Source: a virus
IMG/VR virus record: IMGVR_UViG_3300021335_001607
Location: 1-60,840 of that record
Reading direction: 5' to 3' (one strand)
Length of the DNA: 60,840 bases
The notes beneath the pieces were generated by a model. The model saw only the letters and a program-made list of their open reading frames with translations. It made no database searches and was not told the DNA's origin. The position numbers and the translations under genes were made by a program. Numbering within the stretch: the stretch's first letter is position 1; each line of letters opens with the position of its first letter. Below, one piece after another: positions 3,332 to 35,948 of the stretch.

Positions 3332-3924
3332 GTTTTGGCATGGTAGGAGCATTCGAAAAACAAGTGGCTGAGTTCTACGGAGCAGATTACGGTGTGGCTG
3401 TAGATTGCTGTACTCATGGGCTAGAACTTGCTTTAAGGTATACTAATGCAAAAGAGATATTAGTTCCTTACCATACTTACCTTTCTGTTCCTATGTTAGC
3501 AGATAAATTAAATATAAAACGTACATTTATTCACGACGAATGGAAAGATTTCTACTATATAACTGATAATATTATAGATTCAGCTGTTTATTGGAAAAAA
3601 AATTCGTATATTAAAGGTACGTTCATGGTACTTTCTTTTCAGTTTCAAAAGCACTTAAGCTTAGGAAGAGGAGGAATGATACTTACCGATAATAGAATAG
3701 CATCTCATGAACTTAGATGTATGGCTTATGACGGTAGAGACAATTCAACAGGCCCTTGGGCTAAACAAGAAATAGAAACAATAGGATACCATTATTATAT
3801 GACCCCAGAAATAGCACAAAAAGGATTACATAGCATACACGATGCAGTTGCTAAACCACCTAGAAATTGGACATATAAAGATTATCCTAACTTAACTAAA
3901 TTTAAAGTATTCAACAATGGTTAA
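3328..3924 (+). CDS. short DegT/DnrJ/EryC1-type aminotransferase (PLP-dependent)
   Basis: A 198-residue protein resembling the large domain of DegT/DnrJ/EryC1/StrS sugar aminotransferases, which move an amino group to keto-sugar nucleotides. Visible landmarks are the N-terminal FEKQVAEFYGADYGVAVDCC segment, an Asp in DNIIDSA that would contact the PLP ring, and the probable PLP-binding lysine near residue 108 in FQFQKHLSLGRGG. Full-length members have about 370 residues; the C-terminal small domain is missing. The gene overlaps both neighbours (ATGA upstream, 8 bases downstream), so the short form looks like a real gene rather than a sequencing artefact. It may be active as a shortened enzyme or may have lost activity. 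Confidence 0.75.
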   Translation: MSFGMVGAFEKQVAEFYGADYGVAVDCCTHGLELALRYTNAKEILVPYHTYLSVPMLADKLNIKRTFIHDEWKDFYYITDNIIDSAVYWKKNSYIKGTFMVLSFQFQKHLSLGRGGMILTDNRIASHELRCMAYDGRDNSTGPWAKQEIETIGYHYYMTPEIAQKGLHSIHDAVAKPPRNWTYKDYPNLTKFKVFNNG

Positions 3925-18606: not shown

Positions 18607-19092
18607 ATGGCAGTATTAGATCCTAACGAAATAATGTTCAGAGCTTTCGAACCGAAAGTGCAAAACAGATTTATCATGTATATTGATGCAATTCCATCTT
18701 TCATGATAAAAAATGTCAAAGCTCCTACGTTTACAGATAACGTAGTAAAGCTAGACCATATTAACTCATATAGAAAAATCCGTGGAAAGAGAGAATGGGC
18801 AGAAATGACTATGACTCTATACGATCCGATTACTCCAAGTGGAGCACAAGCCGTAATGGAATGGGCAAGACTAGGATACGAATCAGTAACTGGTAGAGCT
18901 GGATACTCAGATTTCTACAAAAAAGATTTAACTCTTAACGTATTAGGTCCTGTAGGGGACGTAATTGGAGAGTGGATCATTAAAGGTGCATTCGTTACAA
19001 ATGGAGACTTTGGTCAGTTTGACTGGTCTTCTGATGCAGTAGTTGATTTAGGAATTACAATCAACATGGATTACTGTATATTGAATTACTAG
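18607..19092 (+). CDS. tail tube protein (gp19-like)
   Basis: A 161-residue protein directly after the sheath gene, the standard order in contractile phages. Its subunits stack into the inner tube that conducts DNA. Size matches T4 gp19 (163). The beginning (MFRAFEPKVQNRFIMYIDAIP), the KLDHINSYRKIRGKREWAEM segment and the end (DLGITINMDYCILNY) have the pattern of the T4-type tube family, including the long beta-hairpin region. A strong terminator follows the stop codon, and a candidate late motif precedes the start. Confidence 0.9.
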   Translation: MAVLDPNEIMFRAFEPKVQNRFIMYIDAIPSFMIKNVKAPTFTDNVVKLDHINSYRKIRGKREWAEMTMTLYDPITPSGAQAVMEWARLGYESVTGRAGYSDFYKKDLTLNVLGPVGDVIGEWIIKGAFVTNGDFGQFDWSSDAVVDLGITINMDYCILNY

Positions 19093-19118: not shown

Positions 19119-19147
19119 GAAGCCCCCTTGTGGGGCTTTTTTTTTAT
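19119..19147 (+). terminator. rho-independent terminator after tail tube gene
   Basis: A GC-rich hairpin with an AAGCCCC arm, a short TTG-containing loop and a GGGGCTT arm, followed by nine or more Ts. It is the clearest intrinsic terminator in the window, 27 bases after the tube stop codon. It separates sheath/tube transcripts from the next unit, which has its own host-type promoter. Confidence 0.9.
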
Positions 19148-19215: not shown

Positions 19216-19980
19216 ATGGAAAATCAAGCAAATAAGGCAGAAAAGCCTAAGTTTCAAATCCCTACCGAACAGGTAGACCTTCCATCTAAAGGTAAATTAT
19301 ACCCATCCGATCACCCTCTGGCCAGTGGTAAAGTCGAAATGAAGTATATGACAGCCAAAGAGGAAGACATTCTAACGAATCAAAATTATATCGAAAAAGG
19401 TGTAGTTATTGATAAGTTATTACAATCACTAATCGTATCCGATTTTAACTACAACGATCTACTTATTGGAGACAAAAATGCAATTATGGTTGCAGCACGT
19501 ATCTTATCATACGGTAAAGACTACGATATCCAGTATAACGGTAAAGAGATTACTGTAGATTTGACTGAAATCAAAGATAAAGAGTTAGATTTAGATAGTC
19601 TTGAACAAGGACAAAGAGAGTTTACTTTTGCTCTACCGAAAAGTGGTAATGAAGTAACTTTTAAATTACTTACTCATGGAGATGATAAAAACATTGACAG
19701 AGAAGTAGAAGGTTTAAAGAAAATCAATAGAGAGAGTAGCGCTTCCCTATCAACTAGGATGAAATATATAATTACATCAGTAAATGGAGATAGAGAGACA
19801 GCAACTATTAGACAGTTTGTAGATCAAGGTCTTCTTGCTCAAGATGCAAGAGCATTGAGAGAAGAATACGCTAGAGTACAACCAGATGTTGAATTTAAAG
19901 TCTATCATGTGGACGAAGACGGTGTTGGGGAGGACATCGACGTCCCGGTGACGATCAACTTTTTTTGGCCTGACGCCTGA
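19216..19980 (+). CDS. gp26-like baseplate/tail assembly protein (probable tail assembly chaperone, short form)
   Basis: A 254-residue protein. The pattern EQVDLPSKGKLYP, then MKYMTAKEEDILT and a C-terminus of INFFWPDA, is that of the T4 gp26-type baseplate family of marine phages. It sits between the tail tube and the tape measure genes, exactly where lambda-, P2- and Mu-type phages keep their tail assembly chaperone pair. The stop at 19978 follows closely on a run of seven Ts (19960-19966), and an open frame without any start codon continues in the +1 frame to 20230. I infer a short (this) and a frameshifted long product, as in other tail assembly chaperones. The family name is fairly sure; the chaperone role is inference from position. 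Confidence 0.75.
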   Translation: MENQANKAEKPKFQIPTEQVDLPSKGKLYPSDHPLASGKVEMKYMTAKEEDILTNQNYIEKGVVIDKLLQSLIVSDFNYNDLLIGDKNAIMVAARILSYGKDYDIQYNGKEITVDLTEIKDKELDLDSLEQGQREFTFALPKSGNEVTFKLLTHGDDKNIDREVEGLKKINRESSASLSTRMKYIITSVNGDRETATIRQFVDQGLLAQDARALREEYARVQPDVEFKVYHVDEDGVGEDIDVPVTINFFWPDA

Positions 19981-20230
19981 GGCAGCAGCTCAAACAAGAG
20001 CTAGCTTATTTCGGCAAATACACGAGATAGTATTTCATGGTAAAGGTGGCTATGACTGGCATACTGTGTATAACATGCCGATATGGTTAAGAAGATTAAC
20101 TTTTAATTATATAAACGAATGGTATAAAGAGCAAAATGAACAAAGTGAAGATGCTCAACCATCATCGAAAGACAATAGACCAAAAGGACCGGATATTTCT
20201 CCGTCCTATAGTACAAAGGCTTCTAAATAA
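19952..20230 (+). CDS. +1-frame extension of the gp26-like gene (probable programmed frameshift product)
   Basis: An open stretch of 92 codons in the +1 frame. The frame is closed by TGA at 19949-19951 and has no ATG, GTG or TTG until an internal Met near 20075, so it cannot easily start by itself. It reads GLTPEAAAQTRASLFRQIHE, then IVFHGKGGYDWHTVYNMPIW, clearly a protein-coding sequence. The two frames coexist only between 19952 and 19980, which includes the T7 run at 19960-19966. A tRNA-Phe slip from TTT to TTT by +1 (or -2) there joins INFF to GLTPE. A perfect 5-base-pair hairpin (AGCTC/GAGCT, 19987-20002) lies just downstream. Alternatives are a sequencing error in the T-run or a start at a rare codon such as CTG 19970. 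Confidence 0.7.
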   Translation, partial: RSTFFGLTPEAAAQTRASLFRQIHEIVFHGKGGYDWHTVYNMPIWLRRLTFNYINEWYKEQNEQSEDAQPSSKDNRPKGPDISPSYSTKASK

Positions 20231-20267: not shown

Positions 20268-23200
20268 ATGGCTACGACCCAAAACGATCCTAACAAAGGA
20301 GCATCTTTTGATAGAGCAGAAGAACTAAAACAAGCTAATCTAGAAGGAGCTAAGTTCAAAGCTACTATGGAGGGTCTGAATGCCGTATTCAAAGACCTTA
20401 AAAAATCCTCAGGCACAGCACTCAAACAAGATACAGAGTTGCTAGGTCAGCTTAGTTCTCTAGGGAAAGGATATTCAAAAGCGATGAAATTGGCAGATGG
20501 TTTAAAAGGTATAAACCTTTCTGACCTAAAAACTGCTAAACAGCGTACCGAATTTCAGAAAAAACTTCAACAGGCACAAGGAGATCAAGCGCGGGTTGTT
20601 GCCGATATTGCAATGCTTGAAGAAACTGTTGTAGACAAAAAGTCAGAACAAGCAATCGTTACAAGTAAAGTTCAAAAACTAAACAAACTTGTAGAGGAAA
20701 CAGATCTAAGAAGAGAGAATGCCAATAGAACTCTCAATATTCAAAAAGAAGCAGAAGTAGAACTCTATAATGCAATTGAGAAAAAACAAAAAGAAGCAAA
20801 TAAGTTATCTGGAGACGCTAAAGTTTTAGCAGACAAAGAAATCGCAGACATGTTTGTGTCTTTAGAGCAACGTACTAATATGGTTGCCCAAGCACAATCT
20901 AGTTTTGACCTTCAAAACGGAAGAGTAGATAAACTAAATGCTGAATTACTATTAAATGAAGACTTAGAGAAAACTCTAAAAAGACAAATTGAAGCATCTG
21001 AAGGAGCTTTAAAAACTGCTACTGATTATCTAGAAACTATAGACCAAACTATAATAGCCGCAGATGGAGTTTCTAAAGCCATAGATGAAGTAGCAAATGC
21101 TACTCCTAGACTTATAACAGCATTTGAGGACTTTGCTAAAATAACAAGTGCTATACCATTTGTTGGAGAAGTAGTAAACCAGATTGCTGGAGATATAGGT
21201 AAATCTGCACAAATGTTTAAAGACGCCAAAGCAGCAGGTGTAAGTACATTTAAAGCGTGGACTACAGCAGGAGCTGGATTCATGAAGTTGGGATTCTTTG
21301 CAGCTCTTACCGCATTCATAGGTAAAGTAATAGAAGGCGCAAAGATTGGTTCTGAAGCAATGAAAACTCTTAATAAGAGTGTTGCCGGTACTTCAATGAA
21401 TATGTCGGCACAGATGAGTAGAGTAAGTGCTGCCGCTGGTAAATTTACAGTACCTCTCAATGAAGCAGCCGCAACTATAGCAGGACTAAATGAGTCTCTT
21501 GGTATGTCTTTAGACTTTACCAGTGAAACTACAGAACAAGCTATTAAGTTAGCAAATAAATACGGAGTATCTGTTGATGCCGTAGCTCATATAGTTAAAA
21601 ATTCAGCAGCTAATAAAAAGACAATGACTGAGACTGTTGATGCAGTCACAGCAGGAGTAGCTAGGTTTAATGAGATGAATAACGTCTCTATTAGTACTAA
21701 AGCTATTTTCGAAGATATAGGTAAAGCCTCTGCCACAACTTTAAGAGGTATAGGGAAACAACCTGGAGCATTAGCAGCAGCAGCTGCATCAGCAAGGTCT
21801 CTGGGGATGTCTATGGAAGATATTCGATCTGCAGCTGAACAGACAACAGACTTCCAGAAAAGTTTAACTGATGAAATGACTACTGAGATGATGCTCGGTA
21901 AACAGTTAAACTTAAATAAATTAAGAGAAGCAGCTTTAACAGGAGACGTTACGACACAAGCCGAAGAAATGAAAAGGCTTGTTATGGAAAACCAAGGAAG
22001 AATTGGTAATAACGTTAAACTTCAAGAACAGTTTGCCGCTACATTAGGTATCTCAAGAGATCAATATAACGATATGTTGAAAACTCAAGATGCTATGTCT
22101 GTACTTACAGGCAAATCTGGAGCTGCCCAAGAAGAAAATGATAAAAATAGAAAAAAATCTAATGCTGAAATAGCAGAATCAGTTGAACGAAGTGTTGGTA
22201 AGTTAACATCTTTAGCAGATAAATTAGATAAGATGCAAGAAGGTATGGCTACAGGAGCTAAAGGATTCTTTGATGATATCATGGCAGGATTCGAGGGACT
22301 TATAACTGATGGCAAATTCAACTGGAGTGTCCTTTGGGACGGTATGAAAAATGCTTTTGATGTAACTATTACAAGTATAAAAGAAGGAGTCAAAAATTTA
22401 TTTAGTGGAGATTTTTCTGGGACAGATTTAGGTAAGATGTTAGGAGCTGCTACAATCGCTACAGGAGCAGGGTATATAGGGTTCAAAATGCTCAACAAAG
22501 CAGGAGATATGTTCGGGTTAAGTAAACTCTTTGGTAAGAACAGACCCAAGGGTAACGCAATGGATCCAATACACACCGTTGGAGGCGGAACAGGAAATAT
22601 AGTTGATTCCCTAACTAAAAATCTTAGACCTAGGAACGTAAAAGGAATGAATCTTGTAAAAAGATTTTCTAATATTTTTGGAGGTAAAAAGACTATAGTA
22701 GGTAAACAATTACGTAACCTTGCAGCTATGTTCGGTAAACGTAGTAGTATGTTTAAGCAGGTATTCAATGGAATGTCTAAAACTTTTACCTCAGGAGGCC
22801 CTAAAATACTTTCTGGTATATCTAATATATTTAAAGGAGGAGGACCCAAAATAATTTCTGGACTAACTAACACTCTAGGTAAAATAGGACCTGGTCTATC
22901 AAAAATGGCAGGACCGTTACTAGGAAAAGTACTTGCACCATTAGAAATAGCAATGGGTGCTTTTAAAGGTGTTAACCAGGTAAAAGATTTAACAGCAGAA
23001 CAAAAGAAAGAACAAGGTATCCGAGAGGATATGGGTACTGTAGAAGCTGGAGTACTTGGTGCTTTAACCGGTAATGCTAATAAAGGATCTGCTATAAGTG
23101 AATTTGTGGGTATTGAAAAAGGTAGTGCTGGAGACGAAGCAATGGGTATCGCCGCATCTGGTGCTAGAGGAGCTATGGTAGGTGCTGCGATTGGATCTAT

Positions 23201-24305
23201 TATACCCGGCGTAGGAACAGCGATTGGAGGAGCAGTAGGAGGAGCAGTAGGAATAGTAGCAGAAGGATTTAAAGTATTCTCAGATCCTAACTCTAAACTA
23301 AGACAAGGTATTTCCGAATTTGCTTCAAATACTTGGGATAAAGCTAAGGAAATAGGAAGTAAGGTAAAAGAGACTGCTTTGATGGTAGGTGGTAGGATTA
23401 AAGACTTTGCCAAAGGCGTTAGAGATAAAGCACTTGAAGTAGGAGGTCGAATCAAAGACTTTGCATTAGGAGTAAAAGATAAAGCACTTGAAGTAGGAGG
23501 TCGAATCAAAGACTTTGCAGTCGGAGTAAAAGATAAAGCATTAGCATTTGCATCATCAGTAGGAGAAGGTATATCTAACTTTGCATCTACCGCAAAAGAT
23601 AAAGCAATAGCTTTTGCATCTTCTGTAGGAGAAGGTATATCTAATTTTGCTGCAACGGCAGGTGATAAAATATCTGGATTTGCCTCATCAGTTGGAGCCG
23701 GTATTATGTCTTTTGCTAATACAGCTAGAGATAAAGCTAAAGCATTTGCAGGAGCTGTAGGTGAAAAAATTGGTAATATAAGAGGTAAGATTGCAGATTT
23801 CTTAGACGCTAACGATGGGTTAGTAGGAGGAATAAAAGCAGCCGCTATGGGATTAGCAAGCAAGGCTAAAGACTGGTTTGGAAGTAAAGTACAAGGACTT
23901 AAAGATTGGTGGAATGGAGATAAAGCTAAATCAGCTACACCAGAAATAAAACAAGAAGAAATTAAAAAGGTTACTACACCGTTAATGCAAATGTCTAAAG
24001 ATCAAGCTAAGACATTTACTACTGCTATTAACACTGCACTTTCTAAAGGGGCAGACACAACTGTTAAAGCTATGGATAACTTAGGTGATACATTAGAAGA
24101 TCCTTTAATGTTAGGAGCTAAAGCAGCTAATACTCAACTTCAAGAACTTAGAAAATTAAAAGAAGATGGGGATAAACAACATAGAGCTGAACTAATAGAG
24201 CTTCGAAATCAAACAGCATTACTATTTGACTATATTCAGAAACCTACTAAACAAGTAGTAAAAATGAATACATTTAGAGTAGGACAGTCATTAACTAGAG
24301 CATAA
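20268..24305 (+). CDS. tail tape measure protein
   Basis: A 1345-residue protein, the longest in the window, directly after the tail assembly chaperone-like pair. Tape measure proteins set tail length and are ejected ahead of the DNA. Residues about 90-270 are a long Lys/Glu/Gln-rich coiled coil. Residues about 330-355 (TTAGAGFMKLGFFAALTAF) and the Gly/Ala-rich stretch near 965-1005 are hydrophobic and could insert into the host membrane. Residues about 1040-1170 are amphipathic tandem repeats (annotated separately). Ala/Gly/Lys richness and size are typical. At about 0.15 nm per residue, the tail would be roughly 200 nm by the usual rule, an inference only. Confidence 0.9.
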   Translation: MATTQNDPNKGASFDRAEELKQANLEGAKFKATMEGLNAVFKDLKKSSGTALKQDTELLGQLSSLGKGYSKAMKLADGLKGINLSDLKTAKQRTEFQKKLQQAQGDQARVVADIAMLEETVVDKKSEQAIVTSKVQKLNKLVEETDLRRENANRTLNIQKEAEVELYNAIEKKQKEANKLSGDAKVLADKEIADMFVSLEQRTNMVAQAQSSFDLQNGRVDKLNAELLLNEDLEKTLKRQIEASEGALKTATDYLETIDQTIIAADGVSKAIDEVANATPRLITAFEDFAKITSAIPFVGEVVNQIAGDIGKSAQMFKDAKAAGVSTFKAWTTAGAGFMKLGFFAALTAFIGKVIEGAKIGSEAMKTLNKSVAGTSMNMSAQMSRVSAAAGKFTVPLNEAAATIAGLNESLGMSLDFTSETTEQAIKLANKYGVSVDAVAHIVKNSAANKKTMTETVDAVTAGVARFNEMNNVSISTKAIFEDIGKASATTLRGIGKQPGALAAAAASARSLGMSMEDIRSAAEQTTDFQKSLTDEMTTEMMLGKQLNLNKLREAALTGDVTTQAEEMKRLVMENQGRIGNNVKLQEQFAATLGISRDQYNDMLKTQDAMSVLTGKSGAAQEENDKNRKKSNAEIAESVERSVGKLTSLADKLDKMQEGMATGAKGFFDDIMAGFEGLITDGKFNWSVLWDGMKNAFDVTITSIKEGVKNLFSGDFSGTDLGKMLGAATIATGAGYIGFKMLNKAGDMFGLSKLFGKNRPKGNAMDPIHTVGGGTGNIVDSLTKNLRPRNVKGMNLVKRFSNIFGGKKTIVGKQLRNLAAMFGKRSSMFKQVFNGMSKTFTSGGPKILSGISNIFKGGGPKIISGLTNTLGKIGPGLSKMAGPLLGKVLAPLEIAMGAFKGVNQVKDLTAEQKKEQGIREDMGTVEAGVLGALTGNANKGSAISEFVGIEKGSAGDEAMGIAASGARGAMVGAAIGSIIPGVGTAIGGAVGGAVGIVAEGFKVFSDPNSKLRQGISEFASNTWDKAKEIGSKVKETALMVGGRIKDFAKGVRDKALEVGGRIKDFALGVKDKALEVGGRIKDFAVGVKDKALAFASSVGEGISNFASTAKDKAIAFASSVGEGISNFAATAGDKISGFASSVGAGIMSFANTARDKAKAFAGAVGEKIGNIRGKIADFLDANDGLVGGIKAAAMGLASKAKDWFGSKVQGLKDWWNGDKAKSATPEIKQEEIKKVTTPLMQMSKDQAKTFTTAINTALSKGADTTVKAMDNLGDTLEDPLMLGAKAANTQLQELRKLKEDGDKQHRAELIELRNQTALLFDYIQKPTKQVVKMNTFRVGQSLTRA
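23385..23790 (+). repeat. tandem amphipathic repeats in tape measure gene
   Basis: The protein repeats as units of about 18 residues (VGGRIKDFAKGVRDKALE, near-identical copies) and then 22 residues (FASSVGEGISNFASTAKDKA and variants). At the DNA level, 42 bases starting at 23424 recur exactly at 23478, 54 bases on. The 11/22-residue amphipathic pattern, with Lys/Asp pairs and Phe/Val faces, resembles LEA or apolipoprotein-type helices that lie on membranes. Exact DNA identity suggests recent unit duplication, a known way to change tape measure length. Confidence 0.8.
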
Positions 24306-26159: not shown

Positions 26160-28298
26160 ATGTCAGATACTGTATTTAATAAGCCACCTATTACTGGCCT
26201 TACACCTATTGATAGTACGGTCAGAGAGCAGCTAAGTGTTAGATCTGAACTACACAGCAAAACTTATAGTGATCCAGACTTTACACAACACTACATTAAC
26301 TCTAATTACGGATTTGTAAGACTTACATCCGGCATCTCTATTGAATCCTTACCAGATGCACCTAAAAAATTACAACTACTTGGCGGTACATTAAATGATG
26401 GAAAGCCTAGACGTGGAATTAATTTCGAAGGAAAAGGTTTATTAAAAGATCCAAAAACTTTTGAAGACAATAATAACCTTTATACTTTCGAAAAAGAGGG
26501 TATAGTACCTTTACCAGGAATAACTTCTTTTAATGTTACAACCATGGGAGAAGAAGGACTCTTGAGACAAATTGATATCAATATCGAATGTCATTCTGTT
26601 GAACATTTTGGTGTAATGGAAAAGCTTTATATGAGACCTGGATTCAAGATATTAGCTGAATGGGGACATGCAGTCTATATTGATCGTCAAGGTAATAAAG
26701 TTTACTCTCCAAAAGTTTTAGACGATGGTATATTATTTGCTGATCAAGTAGATATGAATGAATTAAAAGAAGAAGGAGGTAAACTAATATTTGATTCACA
26801 ACACAACTACGACTATATTATAGGTACAGTTAGAAACTACAATTGGAGTTATGATAGAGGAGTTTATAATATTGAAATAGAAGCAATGGGTGCAGGAGGA
26901 TTATCTGCTACTCAAGCACGTATGTTTAGAGTTGGAGTTGAAAAAGATAGTGTACCAGATGCAGAAGCAGATAAAGAATTAGAATTTGATTCTGCTGATA
27001 AGTTAGAAGGTTCATTTACTACAATAATGAAAACTATTTCTGAAGCTGCCGGTAGAGGAAGACAGTCAGAAGACCCAATTAAACCTATTCAAGTAGACCA
27101 AGCCAAAATTGATAAAGCATTAAAAAAGAGAAAAGTAGATGAATATGTAACTAATATATGTAGTGAAATAGGGAATGGGTTTAAGTTAGAAGTATATAAA
27201 TTAGATTTTCTCAGTAATAAATCTAAAAAGAGATTTACATATATTCCTTTCAGATTTATTTTTGGATGTTTTAATCATTTCTTCTTACCTAAATTAAAAG
27301 GTGAAGTAACCCCAGAAGGAAAATTTTGTACAGAAGATGGTAGAAATATATACTTAACATATGATAATCATTACAGTGTAGACCCTTATGTATGTTTACT
27401 ACCTAAACAATCAGCAAGTACCCCTTTAGATACTTCTCCTTTAAATGGTAAAAGAGATAAATTTGAAGGAGAGTTATTAGATGTATGGATAAACACAGGG
27501 CATGTATATGATACAATACAAGCAGTACTAAAAGATCCAAAAGCTAATCCAACAGTAGCAACGTTTTTAGATGCTCTACTAGGTTCAATGAGAACAGCAA
27601 TGGGAGGTATAAACGATTTTGCTTTAAATAATGATTATTACTTAGATTTTGAACTCGGTCCAACTACCGTTGTAGATAGAGAATTTCCAACAGACACTAC
27701 AGTATTAGATCAAGAGTTAGTAATAAAGTCTTTAGGAAAAGATTCATACGTAGAAAATATGTCGTTTAATACCAGTATAGATCAGGCAACACTTGATGCT
27801 ATGACTATGCAAGCAGTACTATCAGGAGTAGACGCAGCCAAATCTCTACATAGAGGAGTATCTGCTTATAGTATAGGATTAAAAGATAGGTTTCAAGCAA
27901 CTGACGAAGGTACTACAAAGATAGATGGAACAGCAAAACCTGAAGAACAAAAAAAATCTGTAGAAGAGATATACAGTGATATATACACTAAAAAGGTATA
28001 TAATGCAAAGTCTATAGATTCCGTTAAATATTCTGCCTCAGATGCACAACAGATCGAACTGTCAGATAAACTGCACGGTGAAGGAAAACATACTGGGTTT
28101 GCAATACCGGGAGATATAAGCTTAGTCATGAAAGGAATCGGAGGTTTGAAAATGAAACAATTTTTTAGATTACCTTACGATAATTTACCTAGCACATACA
28201 AAGAAGCAGATGTAGTTTTTATGGTTGCAAATATCAGCCACATGATAGATAGTGGTAAATGGTTAACAGATATTAATGCAAAAGTATATATAGTATAG
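26160..28298 (+). CDS. baseplate hub protein (gp27/gpD-like)
   Basis: A 712-residue protein following the LysM-like gene, the normal place for the central hub that holds the spike. The segment ITSFNVTTMGEEGLLRQIDI and the nearby LYMRPGFKILAEWGH fit hub tube-domain patterns. The C-terminal VFMVANISHMIDSGKWLTDI is typical of the end of gpD-type hub proteins. A long insert (residues about 270-470) with a predicted helical, charged character is extra compared with compact hubs. No lysozyme motif is seen, so any lytic function must reside elsewhere. Confidence 0.7.
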   Translation: MSDTVFNKPPITGLTPIDSTVREQLSVRSELHSKTYSDPDFTQHYINSNYGFVRLTSGISIESLPDAPKKLQLLGGTLNDGKPRRGINFEGKGLLKDPKTFEDNNNLYTFEKEGIVPLPGITSFNVTTMGEEGLLRQIDINIECHSVEHFGVMEKLYMRPGFKILAEWGHAVYIDRQGNKVYSPKVLDDGILFADQVDMNELKEEGGKLIFDSQHNYDYIIGTVRNYNWSYDRGVYNIEIEAMGAGGLSATQARMFRVGVEKDSVPDAEADKELEFDSADKLEGSFTTIMKTISEAAGRGRQSEDPIKPIQVDQAKIDKALKKRKVDEYVTNICSEIGNGFKLEVYKLDFLSNKSKKRFTYIPFRFIFGCFNHFFLPKLKGEVTPEGKFCTEDGRNIYLTYDNHYSVDPYVCLLPKQSASTPLDTSPLNGKRDKFEGELLDVWINTGHVYDTIQAVLKDPKANPTVATFLDALLGSMRTAMGGINDFALNNDYYLDFELGPTTVVDREFPTDTTVLDQELVIKSLGKDSYVENMSFNTSIDQATLDAMTMQAVLSGVDAAKSLHRGVSAYSIGLKDRFQATDEGTTKIDGTAKPEEQKKSVEEIYSDIYTKKVYNAKSIDSVKYSASDAQQIELSDKLHGEGKHTGFAIPGDISLVMKGIGGLKMKQFFRLPYDNLPSTYKEADVVFMVANISHMIDSGKWLTDINAKVYIV

Positions 28299-34598: not shown

Positions 34599-35948
34599 AT
34601 GACATTAAAGAGCTTACAACAATACGGGAAGGGGTTCCAACTAAAAGTACTAGGATCATTACTTACAGATAAAGGCTTCCTGCTTAACGTTAGAGATGTT
34701 TTACACGATCATTATTTTGATGCTGATTCACATAAATGGATCATAAATGAAATCATTAAGTATTTCGATAAGTATCATACTAACATTACAATGGACGTAC
34801 TTAAAGTAGAACTCCAAAAATTAGAGAACGAAGTACTTCAAGTAGCGCTTAAAGAAGAGTTAAGAAACTCTTACGAAGCTTCTCAAGATGATTTAGACTA
34901 CGTACAGGAAGAATTTCAGACCTTCTGTAAAAATCAAGAAATGAAATCAGCCATACTCAATTCAGCTGATCTCCTAAAAGAACACGACTTTGATGGGATT
35001 AGAAATATGATTGAAAAAGCTATGAAAGCTGGTATGGATAAAAATGTTGGACATGAATACAACAAAGATGTTGAAACTCGTTATAGAACTGACTATCGTC
35101 CTACTATTCCTAGTCCTTGGCCTATCCTTAATGATGGACTTCAAGGCGGATTTGGACCTGGGGACTTGGCTATTATTTTTGGTAATCCGGGAGGCGGTAA
35201 GTCTTGGACTTGTGTTGCTATGGCTGCTCATGCTGTTAAAATGGGCTATAAAGTCAATTATTATACTTTGGAACTCGGAGAAGATTACGTCGGTAAAAGA
35301 TTTGACTGTTATTTTACAGGGCACTCTATTGATGAAGTTAATAATCACCGTAAAGAAGTTCAAACACATGTTGATGGACTTAAAGGGAGATTAATAGTTA
35401 AAGAATATGCTCCTAAATCTGCCTCAGTAGGTAGTATTAGATCTCATATACAGAAATGTATTGATATGGATCATAAACCCGATTTAGTTGTTATTGATTA
35501 TGTTGATTATTTAAGAGCTCCTTCTAGAGGTTCTAAATTTGCAGAACGTAAAGATGAAATTGACGATGTATTTATTGCTACTAAAGGTTTAGCTAAAGAG
35601 TTGAAAATTCCTATCATTACACCATCTCAGGTTAATAGAATGGGAGCTAAAGATTCAGTTATCGAAGGAGATAAAGCAGCTGGGTCTTATGACAAGATGA
35701 TGGTTGCAGATATTTGTTTATCGTTATCACGTCAAAAAGAAGATAAGGTACTTGGTACTGGGAGAGTCCATGTTATGAAAAACAGGTACGGTCAAGACGG
35801 TATGACCTACAATGTTAAAATGGATACTAACAATGGTCATATAGAGTTTGAAGGTAAAGTAGACCCTTCAGATTTAATAGAACCTGGAGGAGATAGTAAC
35901 TTTACCGTTGATAGAGCTACTGTGAATAAAATTTTTGATAAAATATAG
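34599..35948 (+). CDS. replicative DNA helicase (DnaB/gp41-like)
   Basis: A 449-residue hexameric helicase that would unwind the replication fork. Walker A is GNPGGGKS at residues 195-202, Walker B is LVVIDYVDYL (about residues 305-314), and the following SKFAERKDEI block with the TPSQVNRMGAKD segment (motif H3/Arg finger region) completes the RecA-type core. The N-terminal domain (1-140) is a helical collar as in DnaB and gp41. Size is close to T4 gp41 (475). No primase gene is seen next to it in this window. Confidence 0.88.
   Translation: MTLKSLQQYGKGFQLKVLGSLLTDKGFLLNVRDVLHDHYFDADSHKWIINEIIKYFDKYHTNITMDVLKVELQKLENEVLQVALKEELRNSYEASQDDLDYVQEEFQTFCKNQEMKSAILNSADLLKEHDFDGIRNMIEKAMKAGMDKNVGHEYNKDVETRYRTDYRPTIPSPWPILNDGLQGGFGPGDLAIIFGNPGGGKSWTCVAMAAHAVKMGYKVNYYTLELGEDYVGKRFDCYFTGHSIDEVNNHRKEVQTHVDGLKGRLIVKEYAPKSASVGSIRSHIQKCIDMDHKPDLVVIDYVDYLRAPSRGSKFAERKDEIDDVFIATKGLAKELKIPIITPSQVNRMGAKDSVIEGDKAAGSYDKMMVADICLSLSRQKEDKVLGTGRVHVMKNRYGQDGMTYNVKMDTNNGHIEFEGKVDPSDLIEPGGDSNFTVDRATVNKIFDKI

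Follow-up and report, generated by a model that had tools for sequence, protein, structure and literature searches.

A probable +1 programmed frameshift between the two halves of a gp26-like tail-assembly chaperone in a clade of phages

We have examined a 60.8-kb IMG/VR virus record (60,840 nucleotides, hereafter the window) in which two reading frames, 19216-19980 and 19967-20230, are very probably the two halves of a single tail-assembly chaperone (TAC) that, judging from sequence comparison, would be joined by a +1 programmed frameshift at TTT_TTT_T|GGC. The observations behind this reading are a conserved frame relation and slip string, the lack of any conserved start codon for the second half, coding conservation past the slip in both frames, and the position of the gene pair. 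The slipping agent (the ribosome and not RNA polymerase), the +1 step, its efficiency and the chaperone function we infer as follows. Most ribosomes would read the first half, TAC-N, up to the TGA at 19978. In a minority, the peptidyl-tRNA(Phe) on UUU 19963-19965, with the sense codon UGG in the A site, would slip one base forward onto UUU 19964-19966 and continue in the +1 frame (GGC CUG ACG...) to yield the fusion TAC-NC. If the pair works as lambda G/GT does, the tape measure protein would be coated with TAC-N, and recruitment of tail-tube subunits would fall to the rare TAC-C domain.

The chaperone locus and its proteins

All features described here lie on the plus strand, in the gene order sheath, tube, T4 gp26-like gene, start-less short frame, tape measure. 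PHROGs matches of both neighbors, the tail tube gene at 18607-19092 (phrog_4542, E 7e-20) and the tape measure gene at 20268-24305 (phrog_1535, E 6.8e-8), place the TAC pair between them, where the first-pass annotation of this DNA had put it. A hairpin with a T-run at 19120-19147, between the tube and TAC genes, reads like a terminator and may allow the two genes to be expressed at different levels; Bacillus phage SP-15 has an annotated intrinsic terminator in the equivalent place.

TAC-N (19216-19980) is the short form of the chaperone, a T4 gp26-like protein of 254 residues with the C-terminus INFFWPDA, and its stop codon is the TGA at 19978-19980. The +1 frame is open from 19952 to 20230 and overlaps the gp26-like ORF at 19952-19980, around TTTTTTT (19960-19966); both frames and the T7 run are real features of the DNA, as first described. 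Within the run the P-site TTT would be 19963-19965 and the skipped base 19966. The Asn codon that precedes it, AAC at 19957-19959, ends in a C that blocks the -1 heptamer T_TTT_TTT. TAC-C, the 87-residue +1-frame extension beginning GLTPEAAAQTRASLFRQIHE, occupies 19967-20230 and is without a usable start of its own. It had been described as lacking a start codon before about 20075; the frame is indeed start-less over its first part, with the first ATG, GTG or TTG in the window being a GTG at 20066. The predicted fusion, translated with TTTT as a single Phe, spans 19216-20230 and has 337 residues.

TAC-N matches phrog_150 (E 6.5e-11) and PF12322 (29.5 bits against a cut-off of 24.5). T4 gp51 matches phrog_150 over its full length and gp26 matches a shorter part. 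The AlphaFold model of TAC-N (pLDDT 90; the TAC-N and TAC-C halves were folded separately, not as a fusion) retrieves many phage baseplate-hub proteins in Foldseek, among them the SP-15 baseplate hub subunit at E 2.8e-17, and its best fold match in the PDB is the HK97 tail assembly chaperone 2ob9, at a non-significant level (E 0.84, prob 0.60). Searching the PDB by sequence gave zero matches. Because no significant match emerged when six Straboviridae gp51/gp26 pairs were compared directly by profile, the kinship to gp26/gp51 rests on the PHROG and Pfam models and the fold search. TAC-C is predicted to form three helices (residues 4-23, 31-35 and 39-63), and a Foldseek search with its model returned nothing significant. 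Its match to phrog_634, which represents the C-terminal part of gp51, is weak (E 0.047 for the window, 0.001 for the best member), an hhalign comparison with gp51 was not significant, and some TAC-C members weakly match a tail-assembly-chaperone PHROG. Pfam DUF6760 is matched by 10 of 40 TAC-C members (alignment A3; best E 3.4e-5) and may be a stand-alone TAC-C.

Frame relation and slip string in relatives

Relatives were collected in a scan of IMG/VR with the first half alone, a large second scan with the Mel-JY01 gene, and smaller ones. Both halves could be located in 187 sequences. In 181 of these, a set that includes the window and the isolates Flavobacterium phage immuto and Microcystis phage Mel-JY01, the second half lies in the +1 frame; in six it lies in -1, and in none do the two share a frame. 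The second frame is matched by tblastn in both isolates, and is also present in 80 IMG/VR loci retrieved with the first half as sole query. Since homologs occur in isolates and metagenomes alike, always +1 to the first ORF, the second frame is coding and not a chance open stretch.

The fusion from the window aligns continuously with 36 relatives translated likewise, the slip string being read as one Phe, and in this alignment of fusions the conservation of TAC-C starts at the slip. This bears directly on the possibility, which we regard as highly unlikely, that TAC-C is translated alone, with initiation at an internal or non-canonical codon (ribosomes might, for instance, reinitiate past the TAC-N stop). 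A separate product would be viable in some relatives, given that two of them (L100 and L104) have a second gene with an ATG just after the TAC-N stop in another frame, and the annotators of phage immuto called a 36-residue ORF. However, no conserved TAC-C start codon was found in the +1 clade: 62 of its 154 unique loci have no ATG, GTG or TTG as far as TAC-C residue 10, and where an upstream ATG does occur in the +1 frame (57 of 154) its position is scattered. Initiation at GTG 20066 would delete the first predicted helix of TAC-C, and the slip string is conserved down to its wobble base. In every one of the 154 unique loci the 0 frame runs into a stop 3-7 codons beyond the slip.

Public annotations cut TAC-C down to a short hypothetical ORF from an internal start. 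In phage immuto (L001, MW353176) this is the 36-residue ORF at 150607-150717, and similarly truncated ORFs are annotated at 35810-35929 in KT624200 (L203) and at 26497-26673 in NC_004735 (L206).

Among 78 unique relatives there is almost no variation in the T-run or in the GGCCTGAC that follows it. A Phe-Phe-aromatic motif is present at the slip in 178 of the 181 +1 sequences, and all but one of these (177 of 178) read TTT or CTT as the final 0-frame codon ahead of the shift, with T as the next base (YUU_U), an arrangement in which tRNA-Phe or tRNA-Leu could move +1 onto UUU. The commonest slip codons are TTT TTT TGG CCT (153 sequences), followed by TTC TTT TGG (14), CTT TTT TGG (3), TTT TTT TAC (3), TTT CTT TGG (2, namely L038 and the isolated phage immuto) and single variants. 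The A-site codon after YUU in the +1 set is UGG, UAC or UUC and never a stop, and no Shine-Dalgarno-like element was found upstream next to the slip, where the consensus reads AAC TTT. The recurrent T-run and missing start for which the first-pass annotation proposed to check related phages are both present. Two sequences keep the +1 relation without ideal tRNA re-pairing, Listeria phage LIS04 with TTT TTT AGT (L004, around 3688-3700) and LR756508 with CTA TTC CCT (L003, around 3742-3754).

Codon choice around the slip departs strongly from that of the rest of the gene, although these counts were taken without regard to relatedness. The second Phe codon at the site is TTT in 151 cases and TTC in none, as against 1099:279 (80% TTT) elsewhere. 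Past the slip, the Pro codon is CCT over its alternatives by 153:1 (476:1036, or 31% CCT, in the gene), and the Asp codon is GAC by 92:1 (683:2381, or 22% GAC, in the gene). The CCT and GAC biases are attributable to double coding, with selection acting on the WPD tail of the 0 frame and on the GLT of the +1 frame alike.

Variants of the string that interrupt the homopolymer, TTC TTT TGG and TTT CTT TGG, argue at once against polymerase slippage, a -2 shift and an indel error. In the first of these, RNA polymerase would omit one U and normal translation would follow, as might be imagined from the T7 of the window or the T9 of L041. Yet the frame relation is unchanged in the 14 loci with a run of only four T (TTC TTT TGG) and in the two with TTTCTTT, and what is conserved is the codon-phased YUU_U and not the length of the run, making this origin of the shift highly improbable. 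A -2 ribosomal shift at the T-run would reach the identical downstream frame, with one extra Phe, and the first-pass annotation had left the choice between +1 and -2 open. Its frameshift is supported and +1 is favored; -2 fails in the CTT_T and TTC_TTT_T relatives: by sequence reasoning, in TTT CTT TGG or TTC TTT TGG it would leave the tRNA mismatched on UUC or UCU, where a +1 step gives UUU, and we give -2 scarcely any weight. Finally, although homopolymers are error-prone and a single-base change to six Ts would join the frames into one continuous gene, such an assembly or sequencing error is refuted in practice, with a probability close to nil, by the repetition of the frame break in about 180 independent contigs and isolated phages, by the lack of any continuous gene among the 187 relatives, by L001 and L038 (TTT CTT TGG), which have no homopolymer, and by the conservation, in the 0 frame, of the WPD tail and the stop that ends it.

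No conserved stimulatory structure for the +1 slip was identified in the window or its relatives. The hairpin at 19987-20002, pointed out in the first-pass annotation, has exact and perfect arms in the window (AGCTC 19987-19991, GAGCT 19998-20002) and folds there with a local z of -2.9. It sits within a four-residue insertion (AAAQ) that most relatives lack, and no conserved downstream structure was found in the relatives, whose mean z of -0.8 is near random. We accordingly reject the hairpin as a frameshift stimulator; the insertion that holds it is lineage-specific, and the hairpin is probably incidental.

Opposite frame relations at a homologous site

Open +1 frames are found at the homologous Phe-Phe in Bacillus phage SP-15, Listeria phage LIS04, Streptococcus phage GXN1 and Rhodothermus phage RM378. 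By contrast, TAC-C lies in the -1 frame at the homologous place in Methylophilales phage Melnitz (Kyanoviridae) and its 58 unique relatives, and likewise in the jumbo phages 121Q, Atu_ph07 and XacN1. Melnitz was used as the representative of the Kyanoviridae in place of cyanophage Syn9, since no TAC gene was identified in the Syn9 regions examined.

The two groups differ in the base that precedes the run. In the -1 set (Kyanoviridae, jumbo phages and other relatives) all 63 unique sequences have the heptamer T_TTT_TTN, with a T before the Phe codons. In the +1 clade a T precedes the run in only 6 of 154 unique loci (148 are without it) and a C or G in 143, and the complete -1 heptamer occurs only in L041 and L086. 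Immediately ahead of the run AAC outnumbers AAT by 54:2, although the ratio is 638:1405 in the remainder of the gene, and the -1 frame stops two codons past the site in 124 of the 154 loci. We read this pattern, with the reservation that the sequences are related and p-values not literal, as probable selection against unwanted -1 slippage.

On the TAC-N tree the +1 label needs three changes, at least two of them by the starred branches; given the length of the deep branches, the number of switches is uncertain. We lean, by a narrow balance of judgment, towards the view that the homologous T-run switched between -1 and +1 in evolution and that the preceding base is a main switch, with T giving -1, while +1 phages avoid T and put a U after the second Phe or Leu codon. 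In L100 (around 3691) and L104 (around 3688), which are nested near phage immuto, the slip site is altered and TAC-C has become a gene of its own that starts with ATG and lies in the -1 frame; this arrangement would be a natural loss of the frameshift.

Relation to known frameshifts

Frameshifting in tail chaperones of the lambda G/GT type has long been known (Xu, Hendrix and Duda 2004; reviewed in PMC5009743). The pair described here resembles G/GT in its location between tube and tape measure, its short and long forms and its start-less second frame, but the lambda shift is the canonical -1, whereas here a +1 shift would act on YUU_U in a T4 gp26-like family that is not that of lambda G. TAC-N belongs to the same family as the products of T4 genes 26 and 51 (phrog_150, PF12322), and the lengths of gp51 and gp26 match the long and short forms, although T4 has separate genes for the two. 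The first-pass annotation knew of no such frameshift in the gp26 family; in fact, as related in PMC10885494 and PMC12846349, frameshifting in T4-like TACs (genes 26/51) is treated by Vladimirov, Gautam and Davidson 2022 (doi 10.1016/j.virol.2021.11.003). In PMC12846349 the poly-T signals cited for T4-like TACs are described as -1, unlike the +1 of the clade of the window. A -1 direction is also reported for the TAC frameshift of Pseudomonas phage Adele and the Vandenendeviridae, with a GTTTTT motif (PMC12846349), a system that shares the T-run at the 3' end of TAC-N and the start-less TAC-C and differs in being -1. The -1 direction that is canonical for TAC frameshifts, a typical and not strictly defining trait, is found here only in distant relatives, the clade itself being +1.

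Precedents for the +1 direction are a one-sentence mention of a +1 tail chaperone frameshift in the genome announcement of the SPO1-like myophage Bacillus phage Moonbeam (PMC4299906), which gives neither slip site nor conservation and can be likened by direction only, and the prfB (RF2) gene. In prfB, +1 re-pairing takes place on CUU_U, and UUU is among the next most slippery triplets (PMC10885494). As proposed here, a P-site YUU would re-pair on UUU, and CUU_U itself occurs in phage immuto; prfB, however, has a stop in the A site and a Shine-Dalgarno sequence 3 nt upstream, where our clade has Trp UGG and no such element. As far as the surveyed literature shows, a large +1 clade in the gp26 family, the YUU_U rule and the use of a homologous site in both directions appear to be new.

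These findings correct how a widespread phage gene is annotated, as isolate genomes now miss or truncate TAC-C. They also supply a large conserved data set on +1 frameshifts with a sense codon in the A site, which are poorly understood. A homologous slip site that would work in opposite directions is a natural experiment, and the rule that decides between +1 and -1 is testable by single-base, even synonymous, changes.
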